Source: Clostridia bacterium
GTDB taxonomy: Bacteria > Bacillota > Clostridia > Oscillospirales > Acutalibacteraceae
Length of the DNA stretch: 64,000 nt
NCBI GenBank assembly: GCA_017625095.1
Contig: JAGALQ010000019.1
Location: forward strand, 45,303-109,302
Direction: 5' to 3'
A program made the position numbers and the translations under genes. Position 1 is the stretch's first letter. Every line of letters begins with the position of its first letter. Shown here piece by piece: positions 4,661 through 27,841 of the stretch. Under the pieces are notes generated by a model. That model had not been told where the DNA came from. It saw only the letters and a program-made list of their open reading frames with translations, and did no database searches.

Positions 4661-4702
4661 AACAACCGCTTTGCCTTTGCTGAAGGTAAAGCGGTTGTTA
4701 TA
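4661..4702. terminator. Bidirectional terminator
   Basis: Arms 4661-4677 and 4683-4699 (AACAACCGCTTTGCCTT / AAGGTAAAGCGGTTGTT, one wobble) form a stem with a 5-base loop between two convergent genes. Flanking A and T runs suit termination on both strands. Confidence 0.85.
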
Positions 4703-5386
4703 TTATCTGTCAGCTTTGTTGAAGTGAAGCTCTTTCATTCCCTCGACCTCGTCGCAGATTGCTTTGAGGTTGCAGGTGTCACAGTCAAAATTAACGCTGT
4801 TCATAATGTGGTTGAGCGTTTCGGTTATTGCGTAATTCTTTTCGGCAATTCTCTCGGCTTCGTTGTAGTCTGCTTCTTTTGCCGTTATAAATATAACCTT
4901 AACACCTTTGACAGCAGGGATTTCCTTATACTTTTCAATCAGCAGTGAGCCGATTTTTTTGAAATCAGCACCGTCGTTCAACGCTTGCTTTGAAACACGC
5001 ACAGCCTCTTTGTGTGAGCGTGAGGTGCTGCGCATCATATAGCCGTCGGGGAAACAGTGGTATTTGACATAGTCAATCTTTTTTATAAGGGAATATGCTT
5101 TCTGCTCGTCGTCACTGTCCTCAATCTGCACAAGTGTGATGCGTGCAAATCTGCGGCTGTCTTTTATTTCTCCGAGATCATCACCGACAACAACAATTGA
5201 GTCGCAAACATCGTCGGAAGTGACAAGGTTAAAGCCGACACCCTCAAGCTCGTATGCGGTATCGCGCCGCATTATCACCTGTGCCTGCTGTGCATCTTGC
5301 CACGGCTTGCATAACTCAAATTCCTTTTTCGGAAAAGCAGAAATTAACTTTTCGGTTTTAAGAATCAACGGATCGAAGAATTTCAT
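4703..5386 (-). CDS. Stand-alone acetyl-CoA synthase-like (AcsB/CdhC middle region) protein
   Basis: The 227-residue protein looks like an isolated internal piece of the CO dehydrogenase/acetyl-CoA synthase beta subunit, a protein of about 700 residues in acetogens. From memory, AcsB carries closely similar strings to FDPLI, CKPWQDAQQAQVIMRRDTAYEL, GYMMRSTSRSHKEAVRVSK, the GSLLIEKYKE stretch and the Cys motif DCDTC-N5-C (Cys202, Cys205, Cys211). The carboxy domain with the nickel A-cluster Gly-Cys motif is absent. Its ATG overlaps the stop of the preceding 51-residue gene by one base (TGATG), so translation is probably coupled. It is the last gene of an operon with a CooC-like nickel ATPase. 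An actual acetyl-CoA synthase activity is unlikely; a scaffold, corrinoid-protein-docking or CoA-binding role is possible. Family assignment is fairly sure, function is not. Confidence 0.72.
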   Translation of the reverse strand: MKFFDPLILKTEKLISAFPKKEFELCKPWQDAQQAQVIMRRDTAYELEGVGFNLVTSDDVCDSIVVVGDDLGEIKDSRRFARITLVQIEDSDDEQKAYSLIKKIDYVKYHCFPDGYMMRSTSRSHKEAVRVSKQALNDGADFKKIGSLLIEKYKEIPAVKGVKVIFITAKEADYNEAERIAEKNYAITETLNHIMNSVNFDCDTCNLKAICDEVEGMKELHFNKADR

Positions 5387-5541
5387 CAGAGCTTTTTATC
5401 CCTCTTCATTGTGTCATAGTGCTTGCCGAGCAGGTCATAAACCTTGCGGATAAGCTTCATATCGAGATTGAAAAAATAGATTGCGAACGTAATAACAAAA
5501 AGTGCAAGGATAACACCGAGAATTATCAGAATAATTTCCAT
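5386..5541 (-). CDS. 51-residue single-pass membrane protein
   Basis: This short gene was placed from context. It fills the gap between the activase stop (5543) and the ATG of the acetyl-CoA-synthase-like gene, which its stop overlaps. The peptide has one strongly hydrophobic helix (EIILIILGVILALFVITFAI) followed by a basic, soluble tail ending KRDKKL. The longer in-frame start at 5625 would run back into the activase gene, so the ATG at 5541 is preferred. Perfect packing inside a six-gene operon argues that it is real. It could tether the otherwise soluble complex to the membrane. No family is recognised. Confidence 0.6.
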   Translation of the reverse strand: MEIILIILGVILALFVITFAIYFFNLDMKLIRKVYDLLGKHYDTMKRDKKL

Positions 5542-5542
5542 A

Positions 5543-6337
5543 TTACTTATCCAGTCCCTTCTGTCGTGCATATTCTGCCGCACCGAGTGCGCCCATAAGC
5601 TGCGGGTCTGTAGCAAGCTCGACAACCTTTATTTTGAGCACCTTTTCGATTGCTTTTTTCAGTCCGTCATTTTTTGCACATCCGCCTGTGAGTGTTATGC
5701 TGTCGGTTGCACCTGCTTTTTTAGCCATAACAAAGCATCTCTTTGCAACGGCAAGCTGAATACCTGCCGCGATTTCATCCATCGGCTTGCCCTCACCGAC
5801 AAGTGAGATAACCTCGCTCTCAGCAAAAACAGTGCACTGTGCAGTGATCGGAATTGTGTTTTTAGCTTCAAGTGAAAGCTTCGAAAACTCGGGCAGAGTC
5901 ATTTCAAATGCGTTTGCCATAGCTTCGTAAAATCTGCCTGTGCCGGCGGCACATTTGTCGTTCATAGCAAAGTTTTTGACTGTGCCGTCTGTGTCGATTG
6001 AAATGCCCTTTACGTCCTGACCGCCGATGTCAATAATAGCCTTGACTTCGGGGTTTGTAACGTGAACACCCATTGCGTGACAGCTGATTTCAGAAATGTT
6101 TTCATCGGCAAAGGGAACCTTGTTTCTGCCGTAGCCGGTACCGATGAGGTATGTAAGCTCCTCGGCTGAATTAAGTCCTTCTACCTGAGCAACAGCGTCG
6201 TTGAGTGCGATTTCAGCACTTGCAACGGGATTGATTTTGCTTCTGTTTGTGACGCTTGCAACAATTTTGCCTTTTTCATCAAGAATAACACATTTTGTGT
6301 ATGTTGAGCCGACGTCACATCCGCCGAAATATTTCAT
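5543..6337 (-). CDS. 2-hydroxyacyl-CoA dehydratase activase (HgdC/BcrA-type ATPase)
   Basis: The 264-residue protein belongs to the BadF/BadG/BcrA/BcrD ATPase family, whose members bind one [4Fe-4S] cluster between two subunits and use ATP hydrolysis to push an electron at very low potential into a partner dehydratase or reductase. The acetate/sugar-kinase fold motifs are visible: CDVGSTYTKCVIL, IGTGYGRN, IIDIGGQDVKG, and LTGGCAKNDGL near the end. The two cluster cysteines expected from HgdC are present in NDKCAAGTGRF (Cys129) and ITAQCTVFAESEV (Cys168). The length is that of HgdC. It lies 14 bases downstream of the dehydratase-like gene that it presumably activates. Confidence 0.92.
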   Translation of the reverse strand: MKYFGGCDVGSTYTKCVILDEKGKIVASVTNRSKINPVASAEIALNDAVAQVEGLNSAEELTYLIGTGYGRNKVPFADENISEISCHAMGVHVTNPEVKAIIDIGGQDVKGISIDTDGTVKNFAMNDKCAAGTGRFYEAMANAFEMTLPEFSKLSLEAKNTIPITAQCTVFAESEVISLVGEGKPMDEIAAGIQLAVAKRCFVMAKKAGATDSITLTGGCAKNDGLKKAIEKVLKIKVVELATDPQLMGALGAAEYARQKGLDK

Positions 6338-6351
6338 AGTTTATTTCTCCT

Positions 6352-7884
6352 TTACCAAGCTAAATCGTCTTCGAAATCAACAAGTGAGGGGTCGAGCGGC
6401 TCCTCCTGAAGAACGGTCTGCATATATTTGTTGACCTGCTCGCGCATATCGCGTCTTGATATTGTTCTGGGGTCCATCAGGTCTTGTTTGACCCAGATAA
6501 AGTTGATGTTTCTCTCTCTTGCCTGGTCATCGAAGATGCCTGCAAGTCCGTCCATACCCTTGCACGAAATCTGATCATACATAATAACCGTATCGGCACC
6601 GTATTCTTCAACAATTCTCCACAGCTCGTCAACAACGTTTCTGTAGCCGCCCTTTGTGTGCTTACGCATAATTGAACGCTGATATGTTTTGGCAACGTCT
6701 TTAAGTGCCTGTTCTTTGTCGGAAGTATCGTACTTGATATAGGAAATCATTGTTTCCATATCCATAACAACGTTCATACCCCAGCAGTTTTCGAGCCAGT
6801 TTGCAAAGCTTGTATAGTAGTTGGCAGGACAGCTCCATACAACCGCACGGTGGCGCATTTCTTTTGAAACCGCTTCTTTGTTTTCATAGCCCTTGAGCAT
6901 AAGCTTGTTGACTTTTTTGTCAACTTTGAGGAATCGCTTGTCTGCACCGCCCGAAAGGTTGAAATAGTAGATTCTGTAAAGCCAGAATGCGGCACCCGTC
7001 ATCTGCGGATATTTTGTTTTGTTTATATCCCACTTTTCAAGCTCATATTCAAGCTGTTTGTTTGATGTTTCAAGTGCTTTGAAAAATACGTCCCAGTCAA
7101 ACTTTTCGCCTGTGTGTTCTTCAATAAACTTTATAAGCTCCTTGACCTCTTCAACCGCGTATTCCTGAACATCCTCATCATTATAACGAAGCGGAATGTT
7201 GAACAGATGAACGGGCAGATTAAGCCTTCTGTCAAGGAAGGTTGAGTTCATAACAGAGCCGTCACACGGCATATTTGTAGCCACCATACAGCAGCCCATC
7301 TTCGGGTAATCGTCATCAATCGCAACGCCTGCCTCAGCAGAGGGAAGGGGACATACGTCGGCAGGTACACCGAAGCTTTCCGTAACCTCGAGATAGGGCG
7401 GAGTTATCTGCTGGTCAACCATTGAGGTGAGGAAAATCGGAATTGTCTGCAGCGGAACAACCTTGAGATTCGGGAAACCTGAGAAAATCTCATTCGGAAT
7501 GATTTCGTCTGTAAGAACGATTTTCTTTGAAAGCTTGTTTTTGGGGTTGATTTTCTCATCCGCAACAAAGGATGTGTTGATAAGTCCCGTTGCGTGCTTG
7601 ACTATCATATTGAAATGCAGGTGAACAATGCGAAGGTGTGTGCCGCGAAGACCTGCGGTGTGTCTGTCGATAAAAGAAGGTGTTGAAAGGTAGGAAGCCA
7701 TCCAACGGTATTTCCATAAACCTCTGACAGTTGAGATTGGTGCCTTGAGCACCATAACTATCATATCTTTCCACGTTACAAGCCAGCGGTAATAGTCATA
7801 CATCGTGTCTTTGAAACCGCGCCATTCTCTGTGCTTAAGAACAGCTTTGCGGTCTTCTGAATAGAGCTTTCCGAGGTCAGCCAT
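6352..7884 (-). CDS. 2-hydroxyacyl-CoA dehydratase-like subunit, long form
   Basis: The 510-residue protein falls in the HgdB/FldB/double-cubane protein superfamily, whose members carry an Fe-S cluster that receives electrons from an HgdC-type activase. Candidate cluster cysteines are Cys178 (ADVCPLP), Cys198/199 (KMGCCM), Cys207 (MPCDGS), Cys352 (VVWSCPAN), Cys367 and Cys441 (QISCKGMDG). Compared with an HgdB subunit (about 380 residues) there is an N-terminal extension of over 100 residues rich in Trp, Tyr and basic residues. The ATG at 7884 is chosen because it overlaps the end of the upstream gene by 8 bases; the open frame beyond it lies inside that gene. The substrate is unknown. Confidence 0.82.
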   Translation of the reverse strand: MADLGKLYSEDRKAVLKHREWRGFKDTMYDYYRWLVTWKDMIVMVLKAPISTVRGLWKYRWMASYLSTPSFIDRHTAGLRGTHLRIVHLHFNMIVKHATGLINTSFVADEKINPKNKLSKKIVLTDEIIPNEIFSGFPNLKVVPLQTIPIFLTSMVDQQITPPYLEVTESFGVPADVCPLPSAEAGVAIDDDYPKMGCCMVATNMPCDGSVMNSTFLDRRLNLPVHLFNIPLRYNDEDVQEYAVEEVKELIKFIEEHTGEKFDWDVFFKALETSNKQLEYELEKWDINKTKYPQMTGAAFWLYRIYYFNLSGGADKRFLKVDKKVNKLMLKGYENKEAVSKEMRHRAVVWSCPANYYTSFANWLENCWGMNVVMDMETMISYIKYDTSDKEQALKDVAKTYQRSIMRKHTKGGYRNVVDELWRIVEEYGADTVIMYDQISCKGMDGLAGIFDDQARERNINFIWVKQDLMDPRTISRRDMREQVNKYMQTVLQEEPLDPSLVDFEDDLAW

Positions 7885-9082
7885 TGTTTTTCGCCTGCCT
7901 TTCCTTCTGTATTTTCTTGATTTCAAGGCTTTCAACAAAAGCCTGAACACGGGTGCGCAGCTGACCCGAAGCAGAAGCTGTGTACTGCCTGTCAACCGCA
8001 GCTGTGGGTACACCGTAGTCGTTGCTCATAACGTAGGATGCGAGCGCTCTTTCGTAGCCCCAGTATTCGCAGAATTTGAGCTGTTCGTACATGACGCCGT
8101 CTGCGTGATATTCGTCAACAAGACGCTTTACATAATCTCTGCGCTCCTGAACCTTTTCGTGACTCATATATCTTGGGCACTGACTTGTTCTCAGATAGTG
8201 CATACAAATCTGCGTCAGAACATCTTCATCGGGATTTATTGTTATTTCCTCTCTGCCGGGCATTGCGCCGAAGCAGTATCTGTCAGCAACAACAAGTGCA
8301 CCACTGTCTTCAATAAGTGCAGTGAAATCGGGATCGTCCATTTCAGAACCGACAACAACGATTTTTGCTCTGAAGTTTTTCTTTGCGTCAGGCTCGCGTG
8401 TCTTAAGCTCTTCTGCTGTTTCACGCAGCTTTGGCAGAATAAGGCTCTTCGGGCAGCAGTATGTAACAAGGTTGAGTATGTGGTATTCGTAGCCTGTGAT
8501 GCGCGGGTTATCCTCTTTGCGGTAGTTGCCGATTTCCGTCATAATACGGCATACCTCGTTATGCTCCTCAACAGCCTTCAGCAGTGCCTCATCTGATGTA
8601 TCGATGCCGTAGACTTCAGACATTTTGTCAAGTATCTTAAGTCTTGTCTGCTTGACATAGTGTCTTACCGTGTGGTCTGCAATTTTAAAAGGCATATCAA
8701 GAAAAGTCAGGAAGAACTTTTCGTTTTCAACAAGGTTGAGCAGCTCAAAGTGCTCTGCCGCTCTGTTCATTTCGGAGCAGGTTTCGCTTGCGAGCAATGC
8801 GTCAAGGAAATTGTAGCCGCCTTCAATCGCTCTTTCGAGTATTGCCTTTGAGTAGCCGCAGAGGAAATTGCTCATATAGTATGTTGCAATATCCAGCGAG
8901 CCTGTGCGAGGTGCTCTGAGTCTGACGGAAAAGCAGTTGCCGCAGTTGAGCAGAACCTCGGGTATGTGGTAGCAGGTGTAGCCAAGGGCTATACCGCCGT
9001 CTTTTTTAGCTTGCTGAACAAGTGTGTTGTTTGCTTCCTGCAGCAGATTTTCAAATTCATAAAGGTGTTTTAAATCTCTCAC
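7877..9082 (-). CDS. 2-hydroxyacyl-CoA dehydratase-like subunit, short form
   Basis: The 401-residue protein matches the 2-hydroxyglutaryl-CoA dehydratase D-component fold. The family pattern is clear: GYTCYHIPEVLLNCGNC (Cys37, Cys47, Cys50), then SNFLCGYSKAILE (Cys75), then LLASETCSEMNRAAE (Cys102), and late in the protein LKFCEYWGYER. These correspond to the cysteines that ligate the cluster or line the active site in HgdAB, FldBC and double-cubane proteins. Pairing with the long-form gene suggests a heterodimer. The start ATG overlaps the stop of the CooC-like gene by 4 bases. It may be a true dehydratase or an ATP-dependent reductase of another small substrate; the sequence cannot decide. 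Confidence 0.88.
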   Translation of the reverse strand: MRDLKHLYEFENLLQEANNTLVQQAKKDGGIALGYTCYHIPEVLLNCGNCFSVRLRAPRTGSLDIATYYMSNFLCGYSKAILERAIEGGYNFLDALLASETCSEMNRAAEHFELLNLVENEKFFLTFLDMPFKIADHTVRHYVKQTRLKILDKMSEVYGIDTSDEALLKAVEEHNEVCRIMTEIGNYRKEDNPRITGYEYHILNLVTYCCPKSLILPKLRETAEELKTREPDAKKNFRAKIVVVGSEMDDPDFTALIEDSGALVVADRYCFGAMPGREEITINPDEDVLTQICMHYLRTSQCPRYMSHEKVQERRDYVKRLVDEYHADGVMYEQLKFCEYWGYERALASYVMSNDYGVPTAAVDRQYTASASGQLRTRVQAFVESLEIKKIQKERQAKNNG

Positions 9083-9846
9083 TTCAGAATCCCCATTTCA
9101 ACAAGAGCCTTTTTAGCTCCTTCAACAACGTTTGAATCGTCCGGTAGTTTTGTTATGTCTTTGCCTTCAATATCATAAATAGCAAGGTTTGAATCGGTCG
9201 GAATATATGACAGAACGGGTATGCCGTTTGTATCGATGTAGGGAATAACGCTTTCATCGGGAATGCGGTTGACTATTGCGCCGACTTTTTTGTACATCAC
9301 AAGCTCATCGGCAACGCTCTTGATTGTAGAAATAACCTGCGTGCCCTTTTTGCTTGCATCCGTTATGAGCAGAAGGTGAGTGACCTTTTCCATAACGCGG
9401 CGGTTAATCTGCTCAATGCCTGCCTCACCGTCAATTACGACGTAGTCAAATTCATCTGAAAGGATGCTGATAACTTCCTTGAGGTAGGAGTTTATTCTGC
9501 AGTAGCAGCCTGCACTTTCGGGTCTGCCTACAGCGATGAATGCAAAGCCGTCAGTTTCAACAAGTGCGTCAAAGATTTTGTATCTTGCGTCACCGAGCAG
9601 CTCGATTGCAGCCTTTGTCTGACCGTCTTCGACTGTTTCTACGATTTCCTTGCGGATGTCATCAATTGTCATTCTGACATCAATGCCGAGTGCTGTCGAA
9701 AGACCTACCGCAGGGTCAGCGTCAATTGCAAGTATCTTCTTGTCGGGATAAGCCTGCACAAGCAGCTTTACTATTGCGGCGGAAATTGACGTTTTGCCTA
9801 CTCCGCCTTTGCCCGAAAGGGCTATGATTGTTGATTTTTCTTTCAA
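9079..9846 (-). CDS. CooC-like nickel-insertion ATPase
   Basis: The 255-residue protein is a MinD/ParA-type ATPase with the deviant Walker A SGKGGVGKT (residues 11-19) and a second motif AIDADPAVGLS. It also has GCYCRIN with a Cys-x-Cys pair (Cys114, Cys116), the metal-binding signature of CooC/AcsF, which loads nickel into CO dehydrogenase and acetyl-CoA synthase. The start is a TTG at 9846, set by AGGAGTG seven bases upstream. It is the first gene of the six-gene operon and has a good promoter. Because its partners are dehydratase-like Fe-S proteins and an AcsB fragment rather than CO dehydrogenase, its client metalloprotein is an open question. Confidence 0.87.
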   Translation of the reverse strand: MKEKSTIIALSGKGGVGKTSISAAIVKLLVQAYPDKKILAIDADPAVGLSTALGIDVRMTIDDIRKEIVETVEDGQTKAAIELLGDARYKIFDALVETDGFAFIAVGRPESAGCYCRINSYLKEVISILSDEFDYVVIDGEAGIEQINRRVMEKVTHLLLITDASKKGTQVISTIKSVADELVMYKKVGAIVNRIPDESVIPYIDTNGIPVLSYIPTDSNLAIYDIEGKDITKLPDDSNVVEGAKKALVEMGILK

Positions 9847-9882: not shown

Positions 9883-9911
9883 AGTATAACATTTTTATCC
9901 GGTTTTTTCAA
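9883..9911 (-). promoter_or_regulatory. Sigma-A promoter of the CooC-like/dehydratase-like operon
   Basis: On the minus strand, TTGAAA (9906-9911) and TATACT (9883-9888) are exactly 17 bases apart and 37 bases upstream of the TTG start. It is the only good promoter seen for the six genes. Confidence 0.75.
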
Positions 9912-26635: not shown

Positions 26636-27841
26636 ATGGAAAAAATGAATTTACTTATTTTGTCAGATGACCTTGATTTGAGAATTGAGGTGAAAAATCT
26701 TGTAGCCGATGAAGCATTTGCAATCAGCGGTTATTCGGATTTTACGGCAGAGGGCAAAACAAAAATAGTAAACAAATACCCTGAAATCGTTCTTTGCGCT
26801 GTACGCGGTGAGGTGCCTGATACGGTGTTCAGCTTCGTTCAGGATCTGCTGGCGGTTGCAAGAGGGTTGATAGTAATTCTCGTAAATGACTCAATAACGG
26901 TTGATCTTGTGAATAAAGCAGCCCAGTACGGAATCCGCAAGGTGCTTCCGATTGACGGAATAGGCATTGACGATTTTTCCGAAAACATCAAAACCGTTTA
27001 CGCACTTGAGCAGCAGCGCATTCTTGATAATAACGAAGGCAAAAGGGTGCGCTGTAAGGCACTCGGATTTTTCGGCGGCAAGGGCGGCACAGGCAAAACA
27101 ACGCTTGCAATCGGTGTTGCCGCAAGCCTTGCAAAGGCAGGCAAAAGGGTAATGCTGCTTGACCTTGATTTGCAGTTCGGTGACGTTTCAATGGCACTTG
27201 ACCTGGATACGAAAAACTCAATCGTTGACCTTGTTCAGGATAGAGGCGGTATTACGATTGAAAATATTAACGGCTTTGCCGTTGAGCATTCAAGCGGTAT
27301 GAGCGTGTTGTGCGCTCCGAAAAGCTCTGAGTTTGCCGAGTTTGTAACGGCGCAACACGTTGAACATATAATTGATATCATGCGTCCGTATTATGAATAC
27401 ATAATCGTCGATATGCCGTCAGCTTTCAACGATGCGGTAATTACAGCCTGCGAAAACTGCGAAGAGATTTTTCTGGTTTATAACAACGAAATTCTCTCGC
27501 TCAATAACGCTAAGGTGTGCTACACAATCCTTGATCAGCTTCATCAGCGCGAAAAAATCAGGTTTGTTCTCAACAAGGTTGAAAAAAGCCTTATAAAGCC
27601 TGAGGATTTCAGCGGAATGTTCCGTACGGAGATGTTCGGTCTGATTCCTGCCGATTATTCCGCTGCACTTGCAAGCATCAATAAGGGGATGCCGGTAACG
27701 GTTGCACAGCCAAAGTCAGTGCTTGCAAAGGGTATTACGGATCTTGCGGAAAAAATAATTGAGGTGCACACGGGTGTAGTTCCCGTAAAGGATACGCAAC
27801 CGAAGAAGAAAGGTTTTTCTTTATTGAAAAAGCAGAAATAA
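26636..27841 (+). CDS. tadZ: TadZ/CpaE-like ATPase
   Basis: The 401-residue protein combines an N-terminal response-regulator-like receiver fold (MNLLILSDDLDLRIEV) with a ParA/MinD ATPase domain carrying GGKGGTGKT (residues 147-155), LLDLDLQFGDVSMAL and VDMPSAFNDAV. TadZ/CpaE proteins place the pilus machine at a site on the membrane. The ATG at 26636 is preferred over an upstream TTG that has no ribosome site. Confidence 0.9.
   Translation: MEKMNLLILSDDLDLRIEVKNLVADEAFAISGYSDFTAEGKTKIVNKYPEIVLCAVRGEVPDTVFSFVQDLLAVARGLIVILVNDSITVDLVNKAAQYGIRKVLPIDGIGIDDFSENIKTVYALEQQRILDNNEGKRVRCKALGFFGGKGGTGKTTLAIGVAASLAKAGKRVMLLDLDLQFGDVSMALDLDTKNSIVDLVQDRGGITIENINGFAVEHSSGMSVLCAPKSSEFAEFVTAQHVEHIIDIMRPYYEYIIVDMPSAFNDAVITACENCEEIFLVYNNEILSLNNAKVCYTILDQLHQREKIRFVLNKVEKSLIKPEDFSGMFRTEMFGLIPADYSAALASINKGMPVTVAQPKSVLAKGITDLAEKIIEVHTGVVPVKDTQPKKKGFSLLKKQK

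Follow-up and report, generated by a model that had tools for sequence, protein, structure and literature searches.

A conserved six-gene operon of uncultured Clostridia joins a candidate benzoyl-CoA-reductase-like, ATP-driven reductase to a module akin to acetyl-CoA synthase and AcsF

Enzymes of the benzoyl-CoA-reductase type and those with double-cubane clusters reach very low potentials, and for the class I benzoyl-CoA reductase BzdNO the ligands of the metal sites have been described, i.e. Cys36/73/100/263/293/327 for the [8Fe-9S] double-cubane of BzdN and Cys95/128/380 for the catalytic [4Fe-4S]-OH2 cluster of BzdO, whereas the second subunit of the related 2-hydroxyacyl-CoA dehydratases holds a smaller [4Fe-5S] cluster; the same account gives the biological function of the double-cubane protein DCCP as unknown (PMC11971306). 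The path by which ATP hydrolysis drives the electrons has precedents in both benzoyl-CoA reductases and dehydratases (PMC11971306; PMC11574389). The genes of metallochaperones can also stand beside those of an anaerobic reductase, as in the isoprene reductase operon, where the nickel chaperones HypA and HypB accompany IsrA in a genome reported to have no hydrogenase (PMC10134865). Here we describe a six-gene operon in a stretch of 64,000 nucleotides from the genome of a Clostridia bacterium (contig JAGALQ010000019.1, positions 45,303 to 109,302; the whole stretch is hereafter called the window), which combines features of these systems with a pair of proteins related to acetyl-CoA synthase (ACS) and its ATPase AcsF. 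As far as could be searched, it constitutes an undescribed variant of a benzoyl-CoA-reductase-like, ATP-driven reductase joined to an ACS/AcsF-derived module: no published description of the six-gene set was found in the open-licence literature, to which the search was limited, in line with the suggestion of an initial annotation, made from the sequence, that the system had not been described.

The operon is a minus-strand block of abutting genes at 4703-9846 in the open-reading-frame map of the window, and all coordinates and spacings of the initial annotation were reproduced (along the operon: an overlap of 4 bases, an overlap of 8, a gap of 14, a gap of 1 and an overlap of 1). Pfam and NCBIfam matches back every gene assignment except that of the membrane peptide, for which neither gave support. 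In the direction of transcription the features are:

9883..9911, minus strand: promoter-like site TTGAAA-17-TATACT, with a TG in front of the second hexamer, some 37 bases 5' of the first start codon (consensus match only)
9079..9846, minus strand: putative CooC/AcsF-type P-loop ATPase, 255 amino acids (aa), TTG start (CbiA/ParA-type Pfam match, motifs)
7877..9082, minus strand: HgdB/BzdN-like subunit, 401 aa, HGD-D family, with a predicted [8Fe-9S] site (Pfam, aligned cysteines)
6352..7884, minus strand: HgdA/BzdO-like subunit, 510 aa, HGD-D family, with a predicted catalytic [4Fe-4S] site (Pfam, aligned cysteines)
5543..6337, minus strand: putative BadF/HgdC-type ATP-dependent activase ('archerase'), 264 aa (Pfam/NCBIfam, solved relatives)
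5386..5541, minus strand: 51-aa peptide with one predicted hydrophobic helix (hydrophobicity, conserved position)
4703..5386, minus strand: short acetyl-CoA-synthase-like protein, 227 aa, with C202-x2-C205-x5-C211 (Pfam CdhC, profile comparison)
4661..4699, no strand assigned: terminator-like hairpin directly 3' of the operon, listed by the scan for the plus strand; on the minus strand it runs into TTTTTATATTTGTTTTT, a T-rich tail

A promoter-like site does precede the first gene, as had been claimed, but it is weak evidence, because the region holds 13 sites of this sort, only a little above the mean of 9.0 (standard deviation 3.6) in shuffled sequence.

The two large subunits had been taken for a dehydratase-like pair. 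In HMMER alignments, however, the six double-cubane ligands of BzdN fall on C37, C75, C102, C270, C302 and C338 of the 401-aa protein, and Cys95 and Cys380 of BzdO fall on C178 and C441 of the 510-aa protein, with C207 one column off Cys128 (ligands from PMC11971306); around C441 the BzdO alignment has a negative score, but the same place is aligned in MbdO. Clusters of the window's kind are called type I here, and a more distant version from another class of the phylum type II (see below). In a chosen spread of types I, II and paralogues, each of the 19 aligned HgdB-like subunits has all six double-cubane cysteines, each of the 21 aligned HgdA-like subunits has the three catalytic-cluster cysteines, and in these 19 and 21 rows neither subunit has a universal cysteine beyond them. 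Two candidates for an extra metal ligand in the large subunit were rejected, namely C352, present in 9 of 21 rows, and C367, present in 17 of 17 type I rows and in 0 of 4 type II rows. The aligned sites thus point to an asymmetric, benzoyl-CoA-reductase-like heterodimer rather than to a plain dehydratase, and together with the BadF-type activase they bear out that part of the initial annotation which foresaw an ATP-driven reductase with a double-cubane and low-potential Fe-S chemistry.

The six and three cysteines and the activase type are shared with BzdNO/BzdPQ and MbdNO/MbdPQ. Nevertheless, the curated models are matched well below their cut-offs (bzdN, 88.5 bits versus 453.8; bzdQ, 163.5 versus 380.2; the DCCP model NF040772, 142 and 59 versus 350; the dehydratase equivalog models, 86 of 700 and 30 of 750), and the active-site residues differ or can not be aligned, i.e. 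the position of BzdO Tyr97 is taken by Leu180, no His lies near the His131 position and the Glu65 region is unaligned, in an alignment that is weak and off by one there (PMC11971306). For these reasons we say that the pair works like, and not that it is, a class I benzoyl-CoA reductase. It further departs from BzdNO in a long N-terminal extension of the 510-aa protein with conserved HREWRG and RYRWM motifs, and in the accompanying membrane peptide, AcsF-like ATPase and ACS-like protein. With DCCP and its reductase the operon shares the double-cubane motif in the HgdB-like subunit and an ATP-dependent activase, but in the homodimeric DCCP both subunits carry the cluster, whereas the motif occurs in only one subunit of the operon pair. 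(R)-2-hydroxyisocaproyl-CoA dehydratase HadBC with its activator is alike in being a heterodimer with an activase and a catalytic three-cysteine cluster, and unlike in having the [4Fe-5S] cluster of the dehydratases in place of the double-cubane (PMC11971306). The N-terminal extension (window 7414-7884), which the Pfam match does not cover, is strongly conserved and rich in Trp, Tyr and Arg in the type I rows, and may be a contact site for the membrane or the peptide.

The activase has as its closest solved matches MbdQ of 3-methylbenzoyl-CoA reductase, followed by the activators of 2-hydroxyisocaproyl- and 2-hydroxyglutaryl-CoA dehydratase, and its score of 215.9 bits clears the cut-off (125.4) of TIGR00241, the model for dehydratase activases. 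The window and the other type I clusters that were read have a single activase, in which they differ from BzdNO/BzdPQ and from type II, where there are two. The 51-aa peptide has a hydrophobic N-terminal stretch (Kyte-Doolittle value of 3.3 over 19 residues) and probably tethers the reductase pair to the membrane.

To gauge how far the gene set is conserved, homologous loci were collected with the 510-aa protein as query and one genome per species. Apart from the window's own locus (L001) this yielded 49 loci, 68-98% identical to the query and all from metagenome-assembled or uncultured bacteria, with many of the metagenome-assembled genomes titled as goat, sheep, deer or cattle gut; the sequence of one locus (L044) holds many X residues. 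The complete six-gene set is present in 40 of the 49, and the window's gene order in 39 of these 40, the exception being L050 (ATPase-activase-peptide-ACS-like-HgdB-HgdA); of the nine incomplete loci, eight are truncated where their contig stops, and the ninth (L034) is genuinely split. The one-base overlap between the peptide and ACS-like genes recurs in all 43 loci that show both. Since the SpoU-type and DUF1349 genes that flank the operon in the window recur in none of the 49 loci, the operon is a conserved unit, and a chance neighbourhood or passenger genes can be ruled out. One locus, L038 (JAMPEQ010000009.1), is titled Bacteroides sp.; its whole 5,189-base operon is found exactly in L069 (contig C32 of G145), which belongs to the window's own family, and the title is probably wrong.

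The distribution over genomes leads to the same picture. The short ACS-like protein was found in at least 7 of 321 genomes of the class (frames of 230-244 aa, 172-343 bits), and those seven, which span four families, were also the ones with the large subunit (score of at least 700 bits); at most 8 ACS-like and 4 large-subunit candidates per genome were scored, which may have left some copies out. Were the genomes independent, hitting the same seven would have a probability of 1.5e-14, a figure that kinship makes too small. In nine further genomes of the 321 the ACS-like profile matched only long ACS-type frames, at 48 bits or less. At the level of the order the family occurs, at 400 bits or more, in 5 of 295 genomes, plus one remote match (G214, 38 bits) that was not counted. 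In the search of the class for the large subunit, matches to ordinary dehydratase-like proteins (at most 69 bits) and one intermediate match of 155 bits (G939) were likewise left out of the family. The family is patchy, as a phylum-wide search of 398 genomes with the large subunit recovered true members only in the window's own genome, and a search of plasmids gave one remote dehydratase only. In a chosen spread of 14 clusters the pairwise distances of five of the genes correlate, with r = 0.95 between HgdA and HgdB and values of 0.59-0.84 in all remaining pairs. The six genes form a real operon, and its conservation goes far beyond chance; the initial annotation's proposal that the six genes act together holds, in that they form one conserved functional set well outside the strain in which they were noticed.

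The first gene had been called CooC-like. The ATPase indeed belongs to the CooC family: CooC is its best solved relative, and it has the deviant Walker A motif GKGGVGKTS and a CXC motif (C114, C116) that is kept in all operon ATPase rows readable there and corresponds to Cys112 and Cys114 of CooC-1, which bind metal, Zn or Ni (PMC6006190). A finer placement was obtained by comparison with the CooC-family genes from 10 fetched ACS loci, which fall into two groups. Genes of the first group adjoin a CODH (carbon monoxide dehydrogenase) gene or lie at most 0.5 kb from one in 7 of 8 loci, and have CYC[K/R]EN in all loci but L188. In 8 of 10 loci those of the second group (GCYC[Y/F]) lie at a distance of two or three open frames from ACS, and L186 and L187, which contain ACS but showed no CODH in their 20 kb, have no other CooC-family gene; by this position near ACS we named the group AcsF. 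The operon ATPases and the type II ATPases together form one tree group (support 100/99). Because the tree of the three groups has no outside root and carries a long-branch warning, the assignment leans on scores and distances as well: the window's ATPase gives 127-158 bits against eight AcsF-group proteins and 72-88 against eight CooC-group proteins. By these measures it is nearer to AcsF than to CooC, contrary to the finer part of the earlier label.

The last gene had been described as an AcsB fragment. Its 227-aa product matches CdhC in Pfam (32.3 bits, cut-off 24) and falls far short of the ACS model TIGR00316 (33 of 356 bits); in a single profile-profile comparison with 13 ACS proteins, 175 columns aligned with a probability of 97.5 and an E-value of 6e-12, spanning the A2 domain into the start of A3. 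C202-x2-C205 aligns with the CxxC in CTLCQSFAPTHVC, the part of ACS that we take to bind the A-cluster, and C211 is invariant, although its match to the third ACS cysteine lies outside the alignment. Soon after this third cysteine the protein ends, without the A1 domain. It resembles AcsB/CdhC with AcsF in its homology to A2 and the start of A3 and in an ATPase nearest AcsF, and differs in lacking A1 and the nickel-binding cysteines. Nine residues do not vary among 25 sequences drawn from both types (M1, E46, L47, G68, R119, R130, C202, C205 and C211), and the short forms (230-277 aa) score 140-343 bits where full ACS scores at most 60. Rather than debris, the sequences indicate a complete, small family of its own of about 230 aa, comprising A2 and the first A-cluster cysteines, and with the ATPase beside it this suggests a co-opted ACS/AcsF pair. 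The operon can be likened in this respect to the isoprene reductase operon, from which it differs in that IsrA is flavin-dependent and HypA/HypB are of a different chaperone family.

Such a pair would ordinarily be looked for next to CODH and ACS. In the window's genome (2.46 Mb in 53 contigs, 87% complete) no match to CODH/Prismane (PF03063, TIGR01702) and no ACS C-terminal domain was found, and the only CdhC match is the operon gene itself. Among 11 type I genomes, CODH (TIGR01702) was not found in 8 and the ACS C-terminal domain not in 9; both are lacking in G000, G145, G265, G286, G071, G775, G976 and G956, of which G000 is 87% and G775 85% complete and the others at least 99%. CODH and ACS are not needed for the type I system. 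The absence of a CO dehydrogenase from the neighbourhood, on which the initial annotation had remarked, therefore extends to most of the genomes, and the clusters are clearly not always companions of a complete CODH/ACS locus.

The ATPase and the ACS-like protein also behave as a module of their own. In G1068, the genome of the split locus, one contig carries HgdB-HgdA-activase-peptide and a different one ATPase-ACS-like. Several genomes have more than one large subunit (three in G071, four in G286, three in G976 and two in G1061) and one short ACS-like gene each. Eight extra reductase copies were read (L063, L065, L066, L067, L068, the second copy of L172, L217 and L218): HgdB stands beside HgdA in all eight and the peptide next to HgdA in seven (none was found in L218), by which the peptide belongs with the reductase pair, and one (L063) has its own activase. 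No ATPase or ACS-like gene of their own was found in the stretches read for any of the eight, with the notes that in L172 the main cluster adjoins and that the contig of L067 measures 6 kb. Several reductases can probably share the activase, the ATPase and the ACS-like protein, and the separate position of the ATPase/ACS-like module, combined with the copy numbers, makes loading or activation in trans likelier than the docking of the reductase on the ACS-like protein as a fixed subunit that was originally envisaged.

The more distant, type II version emerged when the ACS-like profile was run on another class of the phylum, where the short form occurs in 6 of 97 genomes, clear of full ACS by score and length. 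Most genomes of this class carry full ACS, and CODH is present in five of the six type II genomes, the sixth (G714) being 64% complete. An activase and the ATPase lie directly beside the short ACS-like gene in all six. HgdB- and HgdA-like genes precede in G453, G724 and G715, and the end of an HgdA-like gene was recognised by eye in G714; in G704 and G727 the activases, or a point within them, mark the start of the contig. There are two activases wherever the contig permits a view, and no membrane peptide was found. In G453 and G724 the cluster sits among acyl-CoA dehydrogenase genes, and G939 has, besides its type I cluster, a second, type II-like set (L219:7797-14443) of ATPase, HgdA, HgdB and two activases among genes for acetyl-CoA hydrolase/transferase, AMP-binding ligase and thiolase. 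Because they lie among acyl-CoA genes, the distant versions probably act on acyl-CoA. The CooC-family gene of L219 has GCFC in place of GCYC, and the set is interrupted by open reading frames that resemble a transposase.

Setting out from the gene set, the cysteine sites, the kinship, the modularity and the co-occurrence, all of them read from the sequences, we infer an electron path, a membrane tether and an action of the ATPase on the ACS-like protein, which combine into the interpretation that we favour, albeit with modest confidence: a membrane-anchored, ATP-driven reductase of the class I benzoyl-CoA-reductase/2-hydroxyacyl-CoA-dehydratase superfamily, with a co-opted AcsF/ACS pair that serves it in trans by loading metal. 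The activase would hydrolyse ATP and thereby push single electrons onto the [8Fe-9S] double-cubane of the HgdB/BzdN-like subunit, which would store them and hand them to the three-cysteine [4Fe-4S] catalytic cluster of the HgdA/BzdO-like subunit, while the 51-aa peptide would keep the pair at the membrane. The AcsF-like ATPase would act on the ACS-like protein as AcsF does on ACS, placing a metal or an Fe-S unit at CxxC-x5-C, after which the two would mature or activate the reductases in trans. The electron path is modelled on the precedents of benzoyl-CoA reductase and dehydratase, and the maturation in trans follows from kinship and modularity. That the metal is nickel is a guess, possible but short of being favoured, and an Fe-S unit fits nearly as well. 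A more specific picture, in which the ATPase charges a pared-down ACS with nickel and this carrier supplies membrane-bound double-cubane reductases, mostly in organisms without CODH and ACS, is tentative and on the whole doubtful; if true, it would extend both the range of nickel clients and the uses made of the A-cluster scaffold.

In any case the set ties very-low-potential chemistry to an ACS/AcsF metallocentre pair and, probably, to the membrane, and it shows that part of the ACS scaffold is employed beyond acetyl-CoA synthesis. To our knowledge it is an open question how double-cubane clusters are built. The operon hints at a novel route by which one of the most strongly reducing enzymes in biology is assembled or activated, and predicts a maturation partner, with G1068 as a naturally split operon.

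Several observations weigh against the membrane-anchored reductase served in trans. Three of the 11 type I genomes do have CODH, and two of these (G939 and G1045) have full ACS, so that borrowing from a resident CODH/ACS system is possible in G939, G1045 and G1061. The second set of G939 has its own ATPase with no ACS-like gene beside it, which means that the two genes are not always adjacent. The nickel ligands of ACS are a Cys-Gly-Cys; the ACS-like protein stops before them and has no counterpart. It is also the fastest evolving of the proteins (mean p-distance 0.64; the activase has 0.18), and of all the genes it shows the lowest correlation of distances with the others (r = 0.59-0.73). The tethering has the hydrophobicity of a conserved 51-aa open reading frame as its sole ground. 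Finally, CooC-1 takes zinc at the same site as nickel (PMC6006190), and BzdNO was produced in E. coli (PMC11971306), from which it follows that a double-cubane as such needs no ATPase/ACS-like module.

Part of the evidence could be accommodated otherwise. The three invariant cysteines of the ACS-like protein would suit an Fe-S cluster, its gene adjoins the activase in the six type II loci and lies within the activase-peptide end of the type I operon, and one copy could equally serve several reductases if the protein were an electron-transfer or docking protein between ferredoxin and the activase, with the ATPase merely inserting its [4Fe-4S] and the reductase receiving no special metal. We consider this unlikely, as a relative of AcsF and CooC with a metal-binding CXC goes beyond the needs of an electron carrier and known activases receive their electrons directly from ferredoxin or flavodoxin. 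The retained CxxC of the A-cluster and the AcsF-like partner would also agree with an ACS-like protein that is itself catalytic, binding a metal at the cysteine site for organometallic chemistry (e.g. on a one-carbon or acyl group) with electrons from the double-cubane pair; the missing A-cluster nickel ligands, the single copy for several reductases and the lack of any corrinoid or methyltransferase family among the neighbours scanned, which were only some of them, render it quite improbable.

The two explanations that deny the module a role fare worse still. If the operon were that of an ordinary 2-hydroxyacyl-CoA dehydratase, and two of its genes unrelated passengers, this would account for the HGD-D matches of both large subunits and for the activase passing a dehydratase activase model, but the HgdB-like subunit has all six double-cubane cysteines where a dehydratase has the smaller cluster (PMC11971306), the equivalog scores are far under their cut-offs, no acyl-CoA gene was found among the three window neighbours and six other type I neighbours scanned, and the supposed ACS-like passenger co-occurs with the large subunit in 7 of 7 genomes; this makes it very improbable. 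If, on the other hand, the ACS-like protein and the ATPase were decaying leftovers of a lost CODH/ACS system, CODH and full ACS would be missing from genomes such as those 8 and 9 of the 11 of type I, but decay is contradicted by the residues kept invariant in 25 sequences over two classes, and the one-base overlap kept in 43 of 43 loci, the clear separation of the short forms from ACS by score and their occurrence also in genomes that retain ACS or CODH leave it next to no probability.

As to the substrate, the neighbour genes of the type I clusters are not constant between loci; the scan of nine neighbours mentioned above gives a weak hint of a non-CoA substrate. Directly downstream of the G976 cluster lies a flavoprotein of the Old Yellow Enzyme family (L172:10104-12176), nearest to bilirubin reductase and BaiCD though far below the cut-offs, a flavoprotein with a like N-terminus, as judged by eye, is found near the G286 cluster (L178:1467-3548), and another flavoprotein of the Old Yellow Enzyme type lies 4.5 kb from the G939 cluster (L175:14373-16322); as a pointer to the class of substrate these neighbours are a faint hint. 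Other neighbours are a glutamate-synthase-like oxidoreductase in G1061 and an aldehyde ferredoxin oxidoreductase in G1045. Elsewhere in the window, one open frame on the plus strand (27050-27766) encodes a separate ParA/MinD-like ATPase, which matches the operon ATPase profile weakly (19 bits) and appears ordinary.

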